From an uncultured Carboxylicivirga sp. (GTDB taxonomy: Bacteria; Bacteroidota; Bacteroidia; Bacteroidales; Marinilabiliaceae), in NCBI GenBank assembly GCA_947503525.1, contig CANNEA010000003.1, forward strand, positions 620,001 to 684,000: a stretch of DNA of 64,000 nt, read 5' to 3'. The first letter of the stretch is position 1, and each line of letters begins with the position of its first letter. Below, in pieces: positions 33,279 through 39,585 of this stretch. Position numbers and translations under genes: made by a program. The notes under the pieces are model-generated. The model was not told the origin of the DNA and ran no database searches. It worked only from the letters and a program-made list of their open reading frames with translations.

Positions 33279-34307
33279 ATGCGGGTTAGTAATCAAGAAT
33301 ACAGAACGGTTTGGAATAATGTGGAATTGAATAAGGTTTATATGATTGATCAGACCTTATTACCTTTCAAATTTGAAATTATTGAGCTCAATTCTTTTGA
33401 AGATACCGCAAAGGCTATTAAAGATATGATTGTCAGAGGTGCTGGTGCCATTGGTGCAAGTGCCGGATATGCCATGGCACAGGCTTTTGTGCAAAATTCA
33501 GACCTGACATTTGTTACTAAAGCAAAACAAATAATTGAATCTACACGACCAACTGCGGTAAATTTATTCTACGCCACTTCTAAAGTATTTGAGGCTGGTT
33601 TAATTTCTGTTGATAATGCAATTGTAATGGCGCGGAGCATTGCAGATGAAGATGCTGATAGCTGCAAGCTGATTGGTGAATATGGTAATGATCTAATCAA
33701 AAACAAACAGCGAATTTTAACGCATTGTAATGCCGGATGGCTTGCCTTTGTAGACTATGGTTCTGCATTATCACCTGTGTACGCCGCACATAAATCGGGT
33801 AAAGAACCGTTTGTTTATGTTGATGAAACACGCCCAAGAGGCCAAGGTGCTAGATTAACAGCCTGGGAGTTAAATGAAAATAAAGTTGAATATCGAATAA
33901 TTGCAGATAATGCAGCAGCCTTCTATATGGCAAATGGTCAAATTGATATGGTAATTACAGGAGCTGATCGAATTGCAAGGAATGGCGATACAGCTAATAA
34001 AATTGGGACACTGGAGAAAGCTATATTGGCAAAAGAATTTGATATACCTTTTTATGTGGCAGCACCAATTAGTACAATAGATAAAGAAAGTCCATCTGGA
34101 GACAGCTTTATCATTGAAGAGCGCTCTGATGAAGAATTACTTTACCATGATGGACCCGATGAAAAAGGTATAATGCGCAAAATTAGAATGGCTTCGCCAG
34201 GTTCAAAGGGACTTAACCCGGCCTTTGATGTGACTCCTCATAAATATATTAATGGATTTATTACTAATAAAGGCGTACTACAAGCAAATGATCTTAGGAA
34301 TTTGTGA
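33279..34307 (+). CDS. mtnA: S-methyl-5-thioribose-1-phosphate isomerase
   Basis: 342 residues of the eIF2B-like isomerase family. VRGAGAIGASAGYAMA, the catalytic Cys in LTHCNAGWLA, YVDETRPRGQGARLTAWEL and the Asp in ITGADRIARNGDTANKIGT are all present. It converts methylthioribose-1-phosphate to methylthioribulose-1-phosphate in salvage of methylthioadenosine. No other mtn genes are nearby. In bacteria that have only mtnA-like proteins, the product may enter a shunt other than methionine salvage. Some family members are ribose-1,5-bisphosphate isomerases; the motif set favours MtnA. Confidence 0.88.
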   Translation: MRVSNQEYRTVWNNVELNKVYMIDQTLLPFKFEIIELNSFEDTAKAIKDMIVRGAGAIGASAGYAMAQAFVQNSDLTFVTKAKQIIESTRPTAVNLFYATSKVFEAGLISVDNAIVMARSIADEDADSCKLIGEYGNDLIKNKQRILTHCNAGWLAFVDYGSALSPVYAAHKSGKEPFVYVDETRPRGQGARLTAWELNENKVEYRIIADNAAAFYMANGQIDMVITGADRIARNGDTANKIGTLEKAILAKEFDIPFYVAAPISTIDKESPSGDSFIIEERSDEELLYHDGPDEKGIMRKIRMASPGSKGLNPAFDVTPHKYINGFITNKGVLQANDLRNL

Positions 34308-34420
34308 TAATATATTATTAAATAATAACAATTAGTAAGCAAGCATTGTTAATATATAGTCAACTGTAATGACATTGATGTAAATAAATGATGAATTAAT
34401 GTAAAGTGGGCTAATGTAAT

Positions 34421-34450
34421 TTTGAATTGTAAATATTATCAGTACATTTG
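34421..34450 (+). promoter_or_regulatory. Promoter of the threonine operon leader
   Basis: TACATTTG (34443-34450) is an exact -7 element, with TTTG (34421-34424) 18 bases upstream as -33. Transcription would start near 34456, about 26 bases before the leader peptide. Confidence 0.6.
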
Positions 34451-34481
34451 TGATGAATTCTTAAACAGAAGACCGAATAGT

Positions 34482-34541
34482 ATGATGATTTATAATCTTA
34501 CAAATACCATCTCCACAACTATTACCCCTTGGGGGTTATAG
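34482..34541 (+). CDS. thrL: Threonine operon leader peptide
   Basis: A 19-codon frame encodes MMIYNLTNTISTTITPWGL, with five Thr and three Ile. The core TNTISTTIT recalls E. coli ThrL (ISTTITTTITITT). It lies between a consensus promoter and thrA, exactly where an attenuation leader belongs. The last codons overlap a hairpin (34518-34541). Low charged tRNA-Thr or tRNA-Ile would stall the ribosome on the Thr/Ile codons and change downstream RNA folding. The exact terminator is not obvious: the tail before thrA is T-rich (34583-34596) but has no strong GC stem. Too short for automatic gene finders. Confidence 0.75.
   Translation: MMIYNLTNTISTTITPWGL
34518..34541 (+). promoter_or_regulatory. 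Leader hairpin at the end of thrL
   Basis: CTAT-T-ACCCC and GGGGT-T-ATAG form a stem of nine pairs with one T-T mismatch and a TTG loop, covering the last Thr codons and the stop. In addition TGATGAT at the thrL start (34483-34489) is complementary to ATCATCA (34551-34557), which offers an alternative pairing that would cover the leader start. Confidence 0.5.
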
Positions 34542-34603
34542 AAAAGTTATATCATCAGGTCAGTTGTTATTCTATTTAGTTATCATTTTATTTTATTGAA
34601 ATC

Positions 34604-37024
34604 ATGAAAGTACTGAAGTTTGGAGGTACCTCTATGGGCTCATCTGTAGCCATGCTTAACGTTAAAAGAATCGTTGAGAAATCAAGCGACCAGGTTGTGG
34701 TAGTTGTATCGGCTGTTGGTGGCATTACGGATGAATTAATAAAAACATCTGAGAAGGCTGTAAAAGGGGAAGCTTATATAGATATTCTTAATGGCATTAA
34801 GGAAAAGCATAATCAAATAATATCTGAGTTATTCACACCTGCGTTGGAAGTAAGCTTGCAAGAAAAACTTCTTGTGGTTTGGAAAGAGTTGGAGCAGTTT
34901 CTTCAGGGAATCAGCTTAACTGGAGAGTTAAGTACTAAAAGTTATGATACTATAACTGGCTGCGGAGAGAAACTTTCTTCCACTATTATTTCCTTTTTAA
35001 TTAAGGATTCAAAATTGTACGATAGCCGCCAATTTATAAAAACAGAGTTGAATGGGCGCGGGCATGTGGTAAAGATAAATCCTACCATGCAGGCTATTGG
35101 GGAGCTTAAATTTACTCTGCCTGAGGTAGCAGTATTTCCTGGATATATTTCCAGTGATGACCAGGATGATAATACGACACTAGGAAGAGGTGGTTCAGAT
35201 TATACGGCTGCTTTATTAGCAGCCGGACTGGATGCCGAGCAATTAGAGATATGGACTGATGTAGATGGTTTTATGTCGGCAGATCCTCGTGTAATTAAGA
35301 GGGCATATTGCCTCGATCATCTTAGTTACTCAGAAGCCATGGAGTTATCTCATTTTGGAGCTAAAGTCATTTATCCTCCTACTATAATCCCGACCCTACA
35401 GAAAGAAATTCCAATTCTCATAAAGAACACTTTTAATCCTGAAGCAAAAGGAACTCTTATTGATAAGACATCGGATGGGGAACGGAAAGTAAAAGGACTA
35501 TCATCAATAAAGGATGTAAGCCTTCTTACAGTACAAGGTAATGGTATGATAGGTGTTTCCGGTATATCAATGCGTATGTTTAAAGCATTGGCGGAAAATA
35601 GTATCAACGTTATACTTATTTCGCAGGCTTCCAGTGAAAGCAGTATTTCAGTGGTAATAAATGCTGCGGAGTCAGAGATAGCTAAATTGGCATTGATTAA
35701 GGAATTTGAAAAAGAAATTAGTCGCAAACTCATAAACGGAGTATTGGTGGATACCGATATGGCAGTAGTTGCTGTTGTAGGTGAAGGAATGAAACATACT
35801 TCCGGTGTATCAGGTCAATTGTTTAATGATGTAGGAAGAAATGGTATAAATGTTTATGCGATAGCTCAAGGTGCTTCGGAATTGAATATTTCGTTTGTAA
35901 TTCATGAAAAGGATCTTCGTAAAACTCTAAACGTTGTACATGAAGCATTCTTCTTAAGTCAATATCAAGCCATACATTTATATTTGGCTGGCGTTGGCAC
36001 TGTTGGAAAAAGCTTACTGAAAAAGATCCAGAGACAATCTGAACGACTATTGCAAGTGGAACAATTGAGTATTCGTTTAGCCGGGATCGCTAATTCCCGT
36101 CAGATGATATTTAATGATAGGGGCTTGGAATTAGATAGTGCGATAGATGTACTTAAAGAAGCCAGTCCGGGATCAATTGATCAATTTGTTAAGCAGGCAA
36201 TTGCCAATAACTTATCTAATAGTGTTTTCGTTGACTGTTCGGCAAGTCCAATGGTGGCAGAGCATTATCTGACTTTACTCGAAAACAATGTTTCTGTGGT
36301 AACGGCAAATAAAATTGCAAGTTCGTCGGATTACAAGACCTATCAGCAATTAAAGTCAACTGCTGTACAAAAGGGCGTAAAGTATTTATTTGAAACTAAT
36401 GTCGGAGCTGGTTTGCCAATTATCAACACCATAAATGGTATGATTCAGAGTGGTGATCGTATTCTACAATTAGAAGCTGTACTTTCCGGTACACTCAATT
36501 ATATTGTTAATAACGTATCAGCCGAACGTCCATTGTCAGAAGTGGTTATCGAAGCCAAAGAGAAAGGTTATAGTGAACCCGATCCTCGTATTGACCTTAA
36601 AGGAACCGATGTATTACGTAAATTACTTATTCTGGCTCGTGAAAGTGAATATCCTTTGGAACAGAAACACATTGAGATTACGCCATTTTTACCGGAAGAG
36701 TTTTTTGTTGAAGAATCGGTTGAACAGTTTCTGGAGCGACTTAAATCATTTGATGTGGAGTTTGAAAAAAACCGTAAAGCAGCTGAAGATAAAGGGCTCA
36801 TTTTAAGATATGCTGCCTCATTAAAGGAAGGACAGGCCAAAGTTGGTTTTATTGAAGTTGATCAAACACATCCGTTTTATCGTTTAGAAGACAGCAATAA
36901 TAAAGTGATGTTACGTACAGATTATTATTACGATCATCCAATGGAAATTAAAGGCTATGGTGCCGGAGCTGATGTTACAGCAGCAGGTGTATTTGCTGAT
37001 ATTATTAAAGTTGTTAACCTATAA
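34604..37024 (+). CDS. thrA: Bifunctional aspartate kinase / homoserine dehydrogenase
   Basis: 806 residues. The N-terminal aspartokinase starts VLKFGGTSMGSS and has TLGRGGSDYTAALLAA; two ACT-type regulatory segments lie near 300-450 (LTVQGNGMIGVSGISMRMFKAL); the C-terminal homoserine dehydrogenase begins LAGVGTVGKSLLKKI and contains FVDCSASP, VVTANK and GTLNYI. It catalyses the first and third steps from aspartate to homoserine. It opens a three-gene threonine operon (12 bases to the next gene) and is preceded by the leader peptide. Threonine feedback on the ACT domains is usual for this family. Confidence 0.96.
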   Translation: MKVLKFGGTSMGSSVAMLNVKRIVEKSSDQVVVVVSAVGGITDELIKTSEKAVKGEAYIDILNGIKEKHNQIISELFTPALEVSLQEKLLVVWKELEQFLQGISLTGELSTKSYDTITGCGEKLSSTIISFLIKDSKLYDSRQFIKTELNGRGHVVKINPTMQAIGELKFTLPEVAVFPGYISSDDQDDNTTLGRGGSDYTAALLAAGLDAEQLEIWTDVDGFMSADPRVIKRAYCLDHLSYSEAMELSHFGAKVIYPPTIIPTLQKEIPILIKNTFNPEAKGTLIDKTSDGERKVKGLSSIKDVSLLTVQGNGMIGVSGISMRMFKALAENSINVILISQASSESSISVVINAAESEIAKLALIKEFEKEISRKLINGVLVDTDMAVVAVVGEGMKHTSGVSGQLFNDVGRNGINVYAIAQGASELNISFVIHEKDLRKTLNVVHEAFFLSQYQAIHLYLAGVGTVGKSLLKKIQRQSERLLQVEQLSIRLAGIANSRQMIFNDRGLELDSAIDVLKEASPGSIDQFVKQAIANNLSNSVFVDCSASPMVAEHYLTLLENNVSVVTANKIASSSDYKTYQQLKSTAVQKGVKYLFETNVGAGLPIINTINGMIQSGDRILQLEAVLSGTLNYIVNNVSAERPLSEVVIEAKEKGYSEPDPRIDLKGTDVLRKLLILARESEYPLEQKHIEITPFLPEEFFVEESVEQFLERLKSFDVEFEKNRKAAEDKGLILRYAASLKEGQAKVGFIEVDQTHPFYRLEDSNNKVMLRTDYYYDHPMEIKGYGAGADVTAAGVFADIIKVVNL

Positions 37025-37036
37025 TCCTACATAAAC

Positions 37037-38245
37037 ATGAAGTATTTAGTCATTTTAGCTGATGGATTTGCCGATCAACCAATAGATCGACTTGGAGGTA
37101 AAACTCCAATGATGGCGGCTAAAACTCCGCATATAGATCAATTGTGCCAATTATCAAGATGTGGATTACTTAAAACGGTGCCGGATTCATTACATCCCGG
37201 CAGTGAGGTAGCCAATATGACCATTATGGGTTACGATGCGGCCAAATATTATGAGGGTAGAGGTGTTCTTGAAGCAGCTGCTCTTGGTTTGGATTTAGAT
37301 GATGATGATTTGGCTTTTCGCTGTAATTTGGTGAGTGCAGAGGAAGGTGTTCTACTTAATCATTCTGCTGGGCATATTTCGACTCCTGAGGCCAAGGAAC
37401 TTATTGATGTTCTTAACGAAAATCTGAGCAATGATCGAGTGAAATTCTATCCGGGTGTAAGTTACCGTCATGTAATGGTAATAAAAGGTGGCAAAAACGG
37501 CCTGTCATGTACACCGCCTCACGATGTGCCTGGAACGAAGATTGACGGAATTTTACCCAAACCTGCACAAGGTCATGAAACAGCCCGTTTATTAAGCGAT
37601 TTAATGCTGAAGTCTAACGATGTTTTAGATAATCATCCCGTAAATAAAAAACGTAAAGAGAAGGGTAAGCCTGTTGCAAATATGATTTGGCCCTGGTCTC
37701 CCGGATTTAAACCTCAAATGCCATTACTTAAAGATCTCTATGGCATTGAAAACGGTGTAGTTATATCAGCGGTAGATTTAATTCATGGTTTAGGTAAACT
37801 TGGTGGCTTAAAATCTGTTTTTGTGGATGGAGCTACCGGTTTATTTGATACTAATTATACTGGAAAAGCTGAAGCAGCTCTTGAAGCCCTGAAAGATAAT
37901 GACTATGTCTTTCTTCACATTGAGGCACCTGACGAAGCCGGGCATGAAGGTGATGTGGAACTTAAGATAAAAACATTAGAAGATATAGATCAACTGGTGG
38001 TTAAACCCGTATTGAGCTATTTGGATAGTCATAAGGAAGAATTGAGCATTGCTTTTTTACCTGATCATCCTACTCCTTGTGAATTACGAACACACACAAG
38101 AGATTATGTGCCATTTATGATTTCAAGACCAGGTGTTAAAGCTGATAATGTTAATGAATATAACGAATCATCGGTTGCAGATGGTGAAATTGGCTTTCTG
38201 GATCAGACAGAATTTATGACCTATTTCCTATCTGGTAAGAAGTAA
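37037..38245 (+). CDS. Phosphoglycerate mutase-like protein, probable homoserine kinase
   Basis: 402 residues of the alkaline-phosphatase superfamily, archaeal-type cofactor-independent phosphoglycerate mutase (ApgM-like): ILADGFADQPI with the metal-binding Asp, CGLLKTVPDSLHPGSEVANMTIMGYD, FLHIEAPDEAGHEGD and FLPDHPTPCELRTHT. Genes of this type sit between thrA and thrC in many Bacteroidota that lack thrB, and are annotated as proposed homoserine kinases. The same order here supports that role by context. No GHMP-type thrB is in the window. Glycolytic mutase activity is the alternative. Confidence 0.82.
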   Translation: MKYLVILADGFADQPIDRLGGKTPMMAAKTPHIDQLCQLSRCGLLKTVPDSLHPGSEVANMTIMGYDAAKYYEGRGVLEAAALGLDLDDDDLAFRCNLVSAEEGVLLNHSAGHISTPEAKELIDVLNENLSNDRVKFYPGVSYRHVMVIKGGKNGLSCTPPHDVPGTKIDGILPKPAQGHETARLLSDLMLKSNDVLDNHPVNKKRKEKGKPVANMIWPWSPGFKPQMPLLKDLYGIENGVVISAVDLIHGLGKLGGLKSVFVDGATGLFDTNYTGKAEAALEALKDNDYVFLHIEAPDEAGHEGDVELKIKTLEDIDQLVVKPVLSYLDSHKEELSIAFLPDHPTPCELRTHTRDYVPFMISRPGVKADNVNEYNESSVADGEIGFLDQTEFMTYFLSGKK

Positions 38246-38271: not shown

Positions 38272-39585
38272 ATGCAATTTTATAGTACCAACAATGCATC
38301 GCATATAAGTGATTTAAAAAGTGCCGTTCTCAACGGATTGGCTCCTGATAAAGGACTGTATATGCCCGAAGAGATTCCAGTATTACCAGAAAGTTTCTGG
38401 AAGGAATTACCAAATATGGATCTTGGTGAGATTGGTTTTCATGTATTGAGTCCATATTTTTGTCCAACCATCAGTGAAGCTGACTTTAAAGTCTTGACAA
38501 AGGAAGCGTTTAATTTTCCTATACCTTTAAAGCAGGTGTCAGAGCAAATTTATGCACTTGAATTATTTCACGGACCTACCTTAGCCTTTAAGGATATTGG
38601 TGCAAGATTTCTGGCCAGAGTAATGGCTCAGTTCACTAAAGGTTTGGATAAAACAATAAATGTATTGGTTGCCACATCCGGAGATACCGGAAGTGCGGTT
38701 GCCAATGGTTTTTTGGGTGTTGATGGTGTCGATGTATATGTTCTTTATCCCAAAGGGTTGGTTTCTGAGGTGCAGGAGAAACAGTTTGTTACCTTGGGAC
38801 AAAACGTAACAGCTATAGAAGTAGATGGTACTTTTGACGATTGCCAAAGGATGGTGAAAGCTGCCTTTATGGATCAGCAACTAAATGAGGAATTGGTATT
38901 AACATCTGCCAACTCAATTAATCTGGCTCGCTTTTTACCTCAAATGGTGTATTACTATTATGCCTACGCCCAAGCCATTAAATTAGGAAAAAAAGACATT
39001 ACAGTTTCAGTTCCAAGTGGTAATTTTGGGAATTTAACAGCTGGATTGATTGCCCATAAAATGGGTTTACCGGTAAAACAATTTGTTGCAGCAACTAATA
39101 TAAACGACATAGTACCAAAATATCTGGAAACAGGTATTTATAAACCAAGTGCAAGTATAGCAACATCAGCTAATGCCATGGATGTTGGTGATCCAAGTAA
39201 TTTTGTGCGTATCCAAGAGTTATACGATAATGAATTGCAAGGTATTAAAAGCGACATTAATGGATATGTATGCCAAAACGAAGAGATCAGTCAGACAATA
39301 GACCTTGTGTATTCGCAGTTTAAGTATATTTTGGATCCGCATGGCGCCATTGGATACAGATCATTGAATGATTTATTGGATAACGACGACTTTGGCATCT
39401 TTCTTGCGACTGCACATCCGGCTAAGTTTCCCGAAACGGTGGAGAAAATAATTAAAACCAAGGTTGAACAGCCTGAGCGTTTAAAGAAATTTATGCTGGG
39501 AAAGAAGGATGTTAAGACTTCTTCAAGAGATTATGAAGATTTCAAAACATTGCTAAAAAAACAATGTGAAATAAGGTTAGCTTAA
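38272..39585 (+). CDS. thrC: Threonine synthase
   Basis: 437 residues. It converts O-phosphohomoserine to threonine with PLP. The PLP-lysine motif is in HGPTLAFKDIGARF; VATSGDTGSAVANGF and SVPSGNFGNLTAGL form the phosphate cup; the N-terminal FYSTNNASHISDLKSAVLNGLAPDKGLYMPE is typical of the E. coli-type enzyme. It is the last gene of the thr operon, 26 bases after the kinase-like gene, followed by a terminator. Confidence 0.96.
   Translation: MQFYSTNNASHISDLKSAVLNGLAPDKGLYMPEEIPVLPESFWKELPNMDLGEIGFHVLSPYFCPTISEADFKVLTKEAFNFPIPLKQVSEQIYALELFHGPTLAFKDIGARFLARVMAQFTKGLDKTINVLVATSGDTGSAVANGFLGVDGVDVYVLYPKGLVSEVQEKQFVTLGQNVTAIEVDGTFDDCQRMVKAAFMDQQLNEELVLTSANSINLARFLPQMVYYYYAYAQAIKLGKKDITVSVPSGNFGNLTAGLIAHKMGLPVKQFVAATNINDIVPKYLETGIYKPSASIATSANAMDVGDPSNFVRIQELYDNELQGIKSDINGYVCQNEEISQTIDLVYSQFKYILDPHGAIGYRSLNDLLDNDDFGIFLATAHPAKFPETVEKIIKTKVEQPERLKKFMLGKKDVKTSSRDYEDFKTLLKKQCEIRLA

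Follow-up and report, generated by a model that had tools for sequence, protein, structure and literature searches.

A conserved threonine-rich leader with nested RNA helices before thrA in Bacteroidales, a putative threonine-sensing element without a strong intrinsic terminator

The window, a 64,000-nucleotide stretch from an uncultured Carboxylicivirga sp., carries an operon encoding the ThrA fusion protein, a proposed homoserine kinase and threonine synthase (Table 1). This operon makes threonine, the amino acid enriched in the short leader in front of it. A thrA gene of 84% identity is found on a contig of C. linearis. As had been predicted from the letters of the window, a short frame rich in Thr and Ile codons is present between a promoter and thrA; its product, MMIYNLTNTISTTITPWGL, contains five threonines (codons 7, 9, 12, 13 and 15) and three isoleucines (codons 3, 10 and 14). 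Both promoter boxes were found upstream of the frame, and TACATTTG fits TAnnTTTG, which we take to be the consensus of Bacteroidota-type promoters. The sequence ACCCCTTGGGGG occurs only once in the 6.56-Mb genome. Recurrence of the same hairpin elsewhere in this genome was considered and dropped, as none of the six other loci with CCCCTNNGGGG had a leader when judged by eye.

Table 1. Features of the thr locus in the window and of two further leaders in the same genome.
Feature	Position	Strand	Details
Bacteroidota-type promoter	34421..34450	+	TTTG 34421-34424, 18 nt, TACATTTG 34443-34450; read in the letters and by pattern scan
Helix A, 5' strand	34471..34489	+	GACC 34471-34474 and TGATGAT 34483-34489, over the leader start codon
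Leader peptide ORF, MMIYNLTNTISTTITPWGL	34482-34541	+	stop TAG 34539-34541
Hairpin B	34519..34541	+	core ACCCC 34524-34528 / GGGGT 34532-34536, flanks CTAT/ATAG
Helix A, 3' strand, ATCATCAGGTC	34551..34561	+	folding, cross-species partner tests, pair counts
thrA, bifunctional aspartate kinase/homoserine dehydrogenase, 806 aa	34604..37024	+	NF006959, 973.8 bits, cut-off 726
Proposed homoserine kinase	37037..38245	+	TIGR02535; also a cofactor-independent phosphoglycerate mutase match
thrC, threonine synthase	38272..39585	+	TIGR00260, 301.5 bits, cut-off 167.1
His leader MTNCIHHHHHFILRLW, own genome, before hisG	L243 1199-1250	+	followed by a GC-rich hairpin and T7
Branched-chain (ilv) leader MKFNLSLVLDIIIILVVIIT, own genome, before an ILVD_EDD-family gene	L244 1236-1299	-	followed by a GC-rich hairpin and T7

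In the last bases of the frame, CTATTACCCC (34519-34528) and GGGGTTATAG (34532-34541) form an inverted repeat with a single mismatch, and the TAG stop codon forms the final three bases of the resulting hairpin B. The original prediction of a hairpin at the end of the frame was thus correct, except that it had the hairpin begin one base earlier, at 34518. The pairing it had proposed between ATCATCA and the first leader codons was confirmed as well: ATCATCA (34551-34557) pairs with TGATGAT (34483-34489), including positions 2 and 3 of the start codon, and GGTC (34558-34561) pairs with GACC (34471-34474), the two segments forming helix A. Both helix A and hairpin B appear in the minimum-energy folds of the window. 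The whole 186-nt leader is no more stable than its shuffled versions (z +0.99; 173 of 200 shuffles folded at least as well), and, since its stability lies within the shuffle range, the single fold gives no support to the structure; the support comes from conservation.

Upstream regions of thrA were gathered from sets of 30 loci (the window's own included), 80 loci, 16 regions and 100 regions. Three of 116 fetched regions (L199, L200 and L224) had no recognised start and were excluded, and the removal of 14 near-duplicates reduced 223 Bacteroidales regions to 209, a few of them shortened by contig ends. A leader was scored where a frame of 8-45 codons ran into an ACCC[CT]-loop-GGG(G) hairpin, with its stop within 40 nt of the hairpin start. 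A leader with hairpin B was present in 79 of the 209 regions, and in 12 of 12 genomes of the window's genus that had sufficient upstream DNA; the upstream DNA of a 13th was only 86 nt long. The frame and its Thr codons, whose conservation in relatives the original prediction depended on, are therefore conserved. As the hairpin B motif was absent from 130 of the 209 regions, several of which belong to the window's family, the element is patchy.

Removal of L079, which was too short, and of seven leaders more than 80% alike to another left 71 representatives. In these, Thr accounted for 44% of the five codons preceding hairpin B, compared with 0.3% and 2.3% in the two other frames, and it peaked beside the hairpin (51, 58 and 45% at codons -1 to -3); Met occupied codon -1 in 32%. 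A pattern scan found TAnnTTTG in 50 of the 71 leaders, against a shuffle mean of 5.3.

Some leaders had peculiarities of their own. Seven thrA leaders (L059, L082, L086, L087, L173, L174 and L181), of which L082, L086 and L087 are from Parabacteroides, share Y[YH]TWAL(T)MTPWGV and have no Thr run; this sharing hints at conservation at the level of the peptide. A conserved block, GTGTTTCTACGTGATACAC, itself a hairpin, follows the leader in L052, L054, L091, L098 and L114, with close variants in L057, L060, L062, L150 and L160. This set is mostly Bacteroidaceae, and several of its leaders are Met-rich as well as Thr-rich; the block could compete with helix A. Additionally, two Bacteroidales regions (L136 and L228) have Thr-containing leaders without hairpin B, with other hairpins seen behind them by eye.

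The position of the stop codon relative to hairpin B fell into three groups. The stop started 6 nt past the beginning of the hairpin, in its loop, in 19 of the 71 leaders, and 12-18 nt past it, around the 3' arm, in 43; in the remaining 9 it was 21-39 nt past it, outside the hairpin. We also searched without the ACCCC motif for a short GC-rich hairpin with the stop codon of a frame inside it or within 12 nt, and with at least three of six codons for one amino acid at its foot. In this search, which was devised only once the pattern had already been seen, Thr-rich hairpin feet were found in 52 of 239 regions, and each of 12 other amino acids in 0-3 of 239. Substituted stems, ACGGG/CCCGT in three cases and CCCGG/CCGGG in one, were seen in four leaders, each belonging to the set of 30 regions outside Bacteroidales, and the stop codon lay in the loop of each. 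The letters of the stem thus change in concert, and the stop-in-hairpin layout is kept.

Helix A was evaluated in the 71 leaders by pairing the start region (-25 to +22) with the leader's own post-hairpin RNA (0 to 45) or with that of other leaders. Own partners gave a mean of -13.63 kcal/mol, compared with -11.32 kcal/mol for swapped ones (z -6.3), and none of 20,000 permutations was as good, although such counts exaggerate independence because the 71 representatives have common ancestry. A repeat with 5,000 permutations gave z -6.35, and comparison with dinucleotide shuffles gave z -5.5 (0 of 120). The planned control regions together gave z between -2.5 and +1.0: 0.05 and 0.80 for the start region against +50 to +95, -0.8 and 0.96 for the codons before hairpin B against the post-hairpin RNA, -0.9 for reversed letters, and -2.2 and -2.5 for the upstream segment -95 to -48 against the post-hairpin RNA. 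In a map of 24-nt windows, the helix-A windows (z -4.1, -3.8 and -3.7) ranked below an untargeted pair, ATG-42..-18 with B-30..-6, which came first at z -4.4 and also exceeded shuffles; because of this score, and because the leaders share descent, none of these z values is to be taken as a probability. The first window of the untargeted pair (ATG-42..-18) is mostly promoter DNA.

In some leaders, such as L032, L151 and L207, the own pairing was no better than the swapped one. In others, helix A is built of different letters: TAATGATTC/GAATCATTA in L025 and L085, and TACTGAA/TTCAGTA in L128, are the computed best pairings, and ACGATGTTT/AAACATCGT is found in L286, a leader outside the test set. 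For four other class-level leaders folded in this manner, the uncontrolled pairing energies ranged from -4.1 to -14.2 kcal/mol. Within the window's group, aligned as 15 leaders with the same-genus leader L020 excluded, the 3' block of helix A is identical in 10 of the 15, and 91% of the cells pair, compared with 31-53% when slid. Covariation is weak in this group, with two pairs altered on both sides, because the block scarcely varies. Thr codons are conserved at a fixed place, and helix A is supported across lineages by these sequence comparisons.

The original prediction had noted no U-tract terminator of the E. coli type, and terminator scans likewise found none in the window leader. The scan, which required a U-tract behind a stem of 6 or more pairs, covered the stretch from hairpin B to thrA in the thr leaders and 300 nt upstream of hisG, the hisG start being taken at METKIR; 31 of 49 genomes with a HisG match were scanned (30 loci and the window's own). 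Between hairpin B and thrA, intrinsic terminators were found in 5 of 71 thr leaders and in none of 19 in the window's set, with 0-1 in shuffles, whereas the same scan was positive in 26 of the 31 hisG upstream regions of the same relatives. A His-rich leader was present in 28 of these 31 regions. The canonical intrinsic terminator of a classical transcription attenuator was rejected by two scans for the window's set and for the thr leaders overall.

Terminators do follow some thr leaders elsewhere in the class. Outside Bacteroidales, 30 regions were included (two of 32 had no recognised start and were excluded), and 16 Thr-rich leaders were found among them. Seven of these class-level regions had a terminator match within 400 nt before thrA, and in five (L293, L295, L301, L302 and L303) the terminator lay between the leader and the gene. 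No terminator match was found in any of the five class-level regions with the ACCC hairpin motif. From the comparison of these two kinds of region, it therefore seems that the class contains two designs for the same job.

It had also been predicted that stalling, as opposed to free translation, would switch the leader between alternative RNA folds. This switch found no support: as nested helices, A and B do not exclude each other, and no clear antiterminator was found in the pairing map. A conserved antiterminator using the G-run of hairpin B was rejected, since the map gave no signal with that run. Pairing of +8 to +32 with +34 to +58 after hairpin B gave z -3.5 against swapped partners and -2.0 against shuffles.

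In E. coli, thrL is a short Thr- and Ile-rich leader before thrA, whose regulatory codons abut a hairpin. The element described here is like thrL, and the Thr_leader family (RF00506), in being a Thr/Ile-rich leader before thrA with regulatory codons adjoining a hairpin. Unlike thrL, it lacks a strong intrinsic terminator and shows no clear antiterminator; its stop codon falls within the hairpin or at its foot, and its start codon lies in a long-range helix. RF00506 was absent even among the matches with E<=10 of positions 34300-34700, and no Rfam family reached its gathering score in the window or in the loci of 20 relatives. The 1:2 hairpin of E. coli trpL is formed from the end of the regulatory codons and contains the leader stop codon, and trpL has strands 3 and 4 too. 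The placement of the stop codon in such a hairpin is shared with trpL, but no counterpart of strands 3 and 4 was found here.

Other leaders offer further comparisons. The his and ilv leaders of the window's own genome, and the thr leaders L293, L295 and L301-L303, follow the same amino-acid-specific principle, but they have a GC-rich hairpin and a U-tract before the gene, which the thr leaders with hairpin B lack. Bacteroid-trp RNA (RF01692) is also a Bacteroidota leader (..FWWW..), located before trp genes, but it ends in a textbook terminator. RF01692 had no match at E <= 0.001 in the own genome and none in the window, and membership in that family was dropped. Actinobacterial cys leaders, as treated in part of PMC1262725, resemble the present ones in being leader peptides without an obvious terminator, and differ in that conserved hairpins are said there to be absent. 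In actinobacterial ilvB leaders, whose frames overlap terminators (according to the relevant part of PMC1262725) and for which an ilvB-II motif is described (in part of PMC10272879), the regulatory codons overlap a hairpin as they do here, but poly-U is present. A helix between the leader start and the post-hairpin RNA is not described for cys or ilvB leaders in these parts of the two sources.

Taken together, comparison at the sequence level establishes a conserved Thr-rich frame, the predicted hairpin B and helix A, and the lack of a strong intrinsic terminator before thrA. This architecture appears as a conserved variant of a thr leader, which fails to be an attenuator in the textbook sense on the terminator. 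Leader-peptide control of the thr operon, that is, threonine sensing in the wide sense, is very probably its function. With Thr-tRNA plentiful, the ribosome would finish the leader and depart, and helices A and B would close, locking away the start and stop codons of the leader; the empty leader would then give low thrA output. With Thr-tRNA scarce, the ribosome would wait on the Thr codons beside hairpin B and cover its 5' arm, the structure would stay open, and thrA would be expressed.

Footprint folding, in which a 30-nt footprint was placed over successive codons of the window leader, fits the clustering of Thr codons beside hairpin B. With the A site at codon 11 or later, including Thr codons 12, 13 and 15, hairpin B was removed, whereas at codons 7-10 most of both helices remained. 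Helix A was removed with the A site at codons 1-3, and four of its pairs were left at codons 4-6 and at the stop. Because stalls at Thr codons 7 and 9 leave A and B largely formed, only the Thr codons near hairpin B could act as proposed. In this model, a stalled ribosome would more probably cover hairpin B than switch the leader between folds.

Low output from the closed structure would most likely result from an early end of transcription without a textbook U-tract terminator, either through Rho acting on the exposed C-rich, G-poor loop or through a weak terminator made of helix A and a U-rich tract. A threonine-sensing leader in which the closed structure lowers thrA output through premature termination is the reading that we favour and regard as reasonably probable. 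The next three explanations are alternative forms of its last step, and their likelihoods overlap with its own.

In the first, the leader is a Rho-dependent attenuator: Rho would load on the empty, C-rich and G-poor loop of Thr codons between helices A and B and terminate transcription before thrA, and stalled ribosomes would block it. Rho sites are C-rich and G-poor, and between codon 4 and the last base of ACCCC the window has 34% C and 0% G (means of 31% C and 11% G in the 71 leaders), although this C-richness is no independent evidence for Rho because the Thr codons cause it. Terminators are nearly absent from the thr leaders, and the same tentative account has been given for the terminator-free actinobacterial cys leaders (in part of PMC1262725). 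On the other hand, the shortest spacer before thrA is 57 nt. On balance, Rho-dependent attenuation is possible but somewhat doubtful.

In the second, which we consider unlikely, the leader forms a composite intrinsic terminator, with a continuous 3' strand (the 3' arm of hairpin B, the 3' strand of helix A and a U-rich tract) and a 5' partner split by the frame, whose formation a ribosome inside the frame would prevent. In its favour, leaders of the window's group have the GC pairs GACC/GGTC at the foot and T-rich DNA behind them, and T runs of at least 5 occur within 90 nt after hairpin B in 52 of the 71 leaders, compared with 32.4 in shuffles. The U-rich segment at +10 to +14 after hairpin B is clearest in the 19 leaders with the stop in the loop, with T at 0.74-0.84 at +10 to +13. 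In L028, CATGATT/AATCATG appears by eye to be flush with ATTTTTTT, but the computed best pairing of L028 differs. Against such a terminator, no T run of at least 5 lies between hairpin B and thrA in the window, and the RNA after helix A is not U-rich in L128 and L025. Moreover, as the U-run pairs with A-rich sequence before the leader start in L076, L143 and L152, the U-rich tract need not be a termination tract.

In the third, closure of the leader would alter access to thrA or decay from the 5' end of the RNA, and termination would play no part. The lack of a terminator and the location of helix A near the presumed 5' end of the RNA, as inferred from the promoter boxes, agree with translational or stability control, but the distance from hairpin B to thrA ranges from 57 to 221 nt among the 71 leaders, and fixed masking of the start is not conserved. 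Masking of the thrA start, one of the read-outs originally suggested, is unlikely because of this variation and was ruled out as a general read-out; the explanation as a whole appears improbable. Finally, a chance Thr-rich frame with chance pairings, with which the single-fold z-score would agree, is extremely improbable in view of the conserved frame, the position of Thr, the hairpin with its compensated stem, and helix A.

Returning to the favoured reading of threonine sensing with premature termination, we tentatively propose a wider form of it, which may or may not hold: a terminator-free family of thr leaders across the Bacteroidia, in which the start and stop codons would be held in two nested helices unless a ribosome waits on Thr codons, with a Rho-dependent or otherwise non-canonical read-out of the empty, closed leader, and which would share a genome with textbook his and ilv attenuators.

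Few accounts of amino-acid attenuation in Bacteroidota appear among the papers listed in our searches. For Flavobacterium psychrophilum, 'strong clues' have been described that amino-acid operons are attenuated through leader peptides, with conserved elements that include pheA and hisG; thr is not named in that section (part of PMC9723704). Long 5' UTRs of B. thetaiotaomicron contain short ORFs 'reminiscent of leader peptides' (part of PMC7366714). Among the papers listed, no title or opening of an abstract concerned a threonine leader from Bacteroidota; since a comparative survey of attenuation from 2010 may already list some, the leader itself is not claimed as unpublished. The thr leader, terminator-free in a genome whose his and ilv leaders both have terminators, is a testable departure from the textbook. 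If the proposed reading is true, this leader would be a natural threonine switch of Bacteroidota with an unusual read-out, and a hairpin that contains the stop codon and is preceded by repeated codons for a single amino acid would be a structural marker for similar leaders that terminator-based searches miss. It would also provide a handle on the early end of transcription in Bacteroidota.
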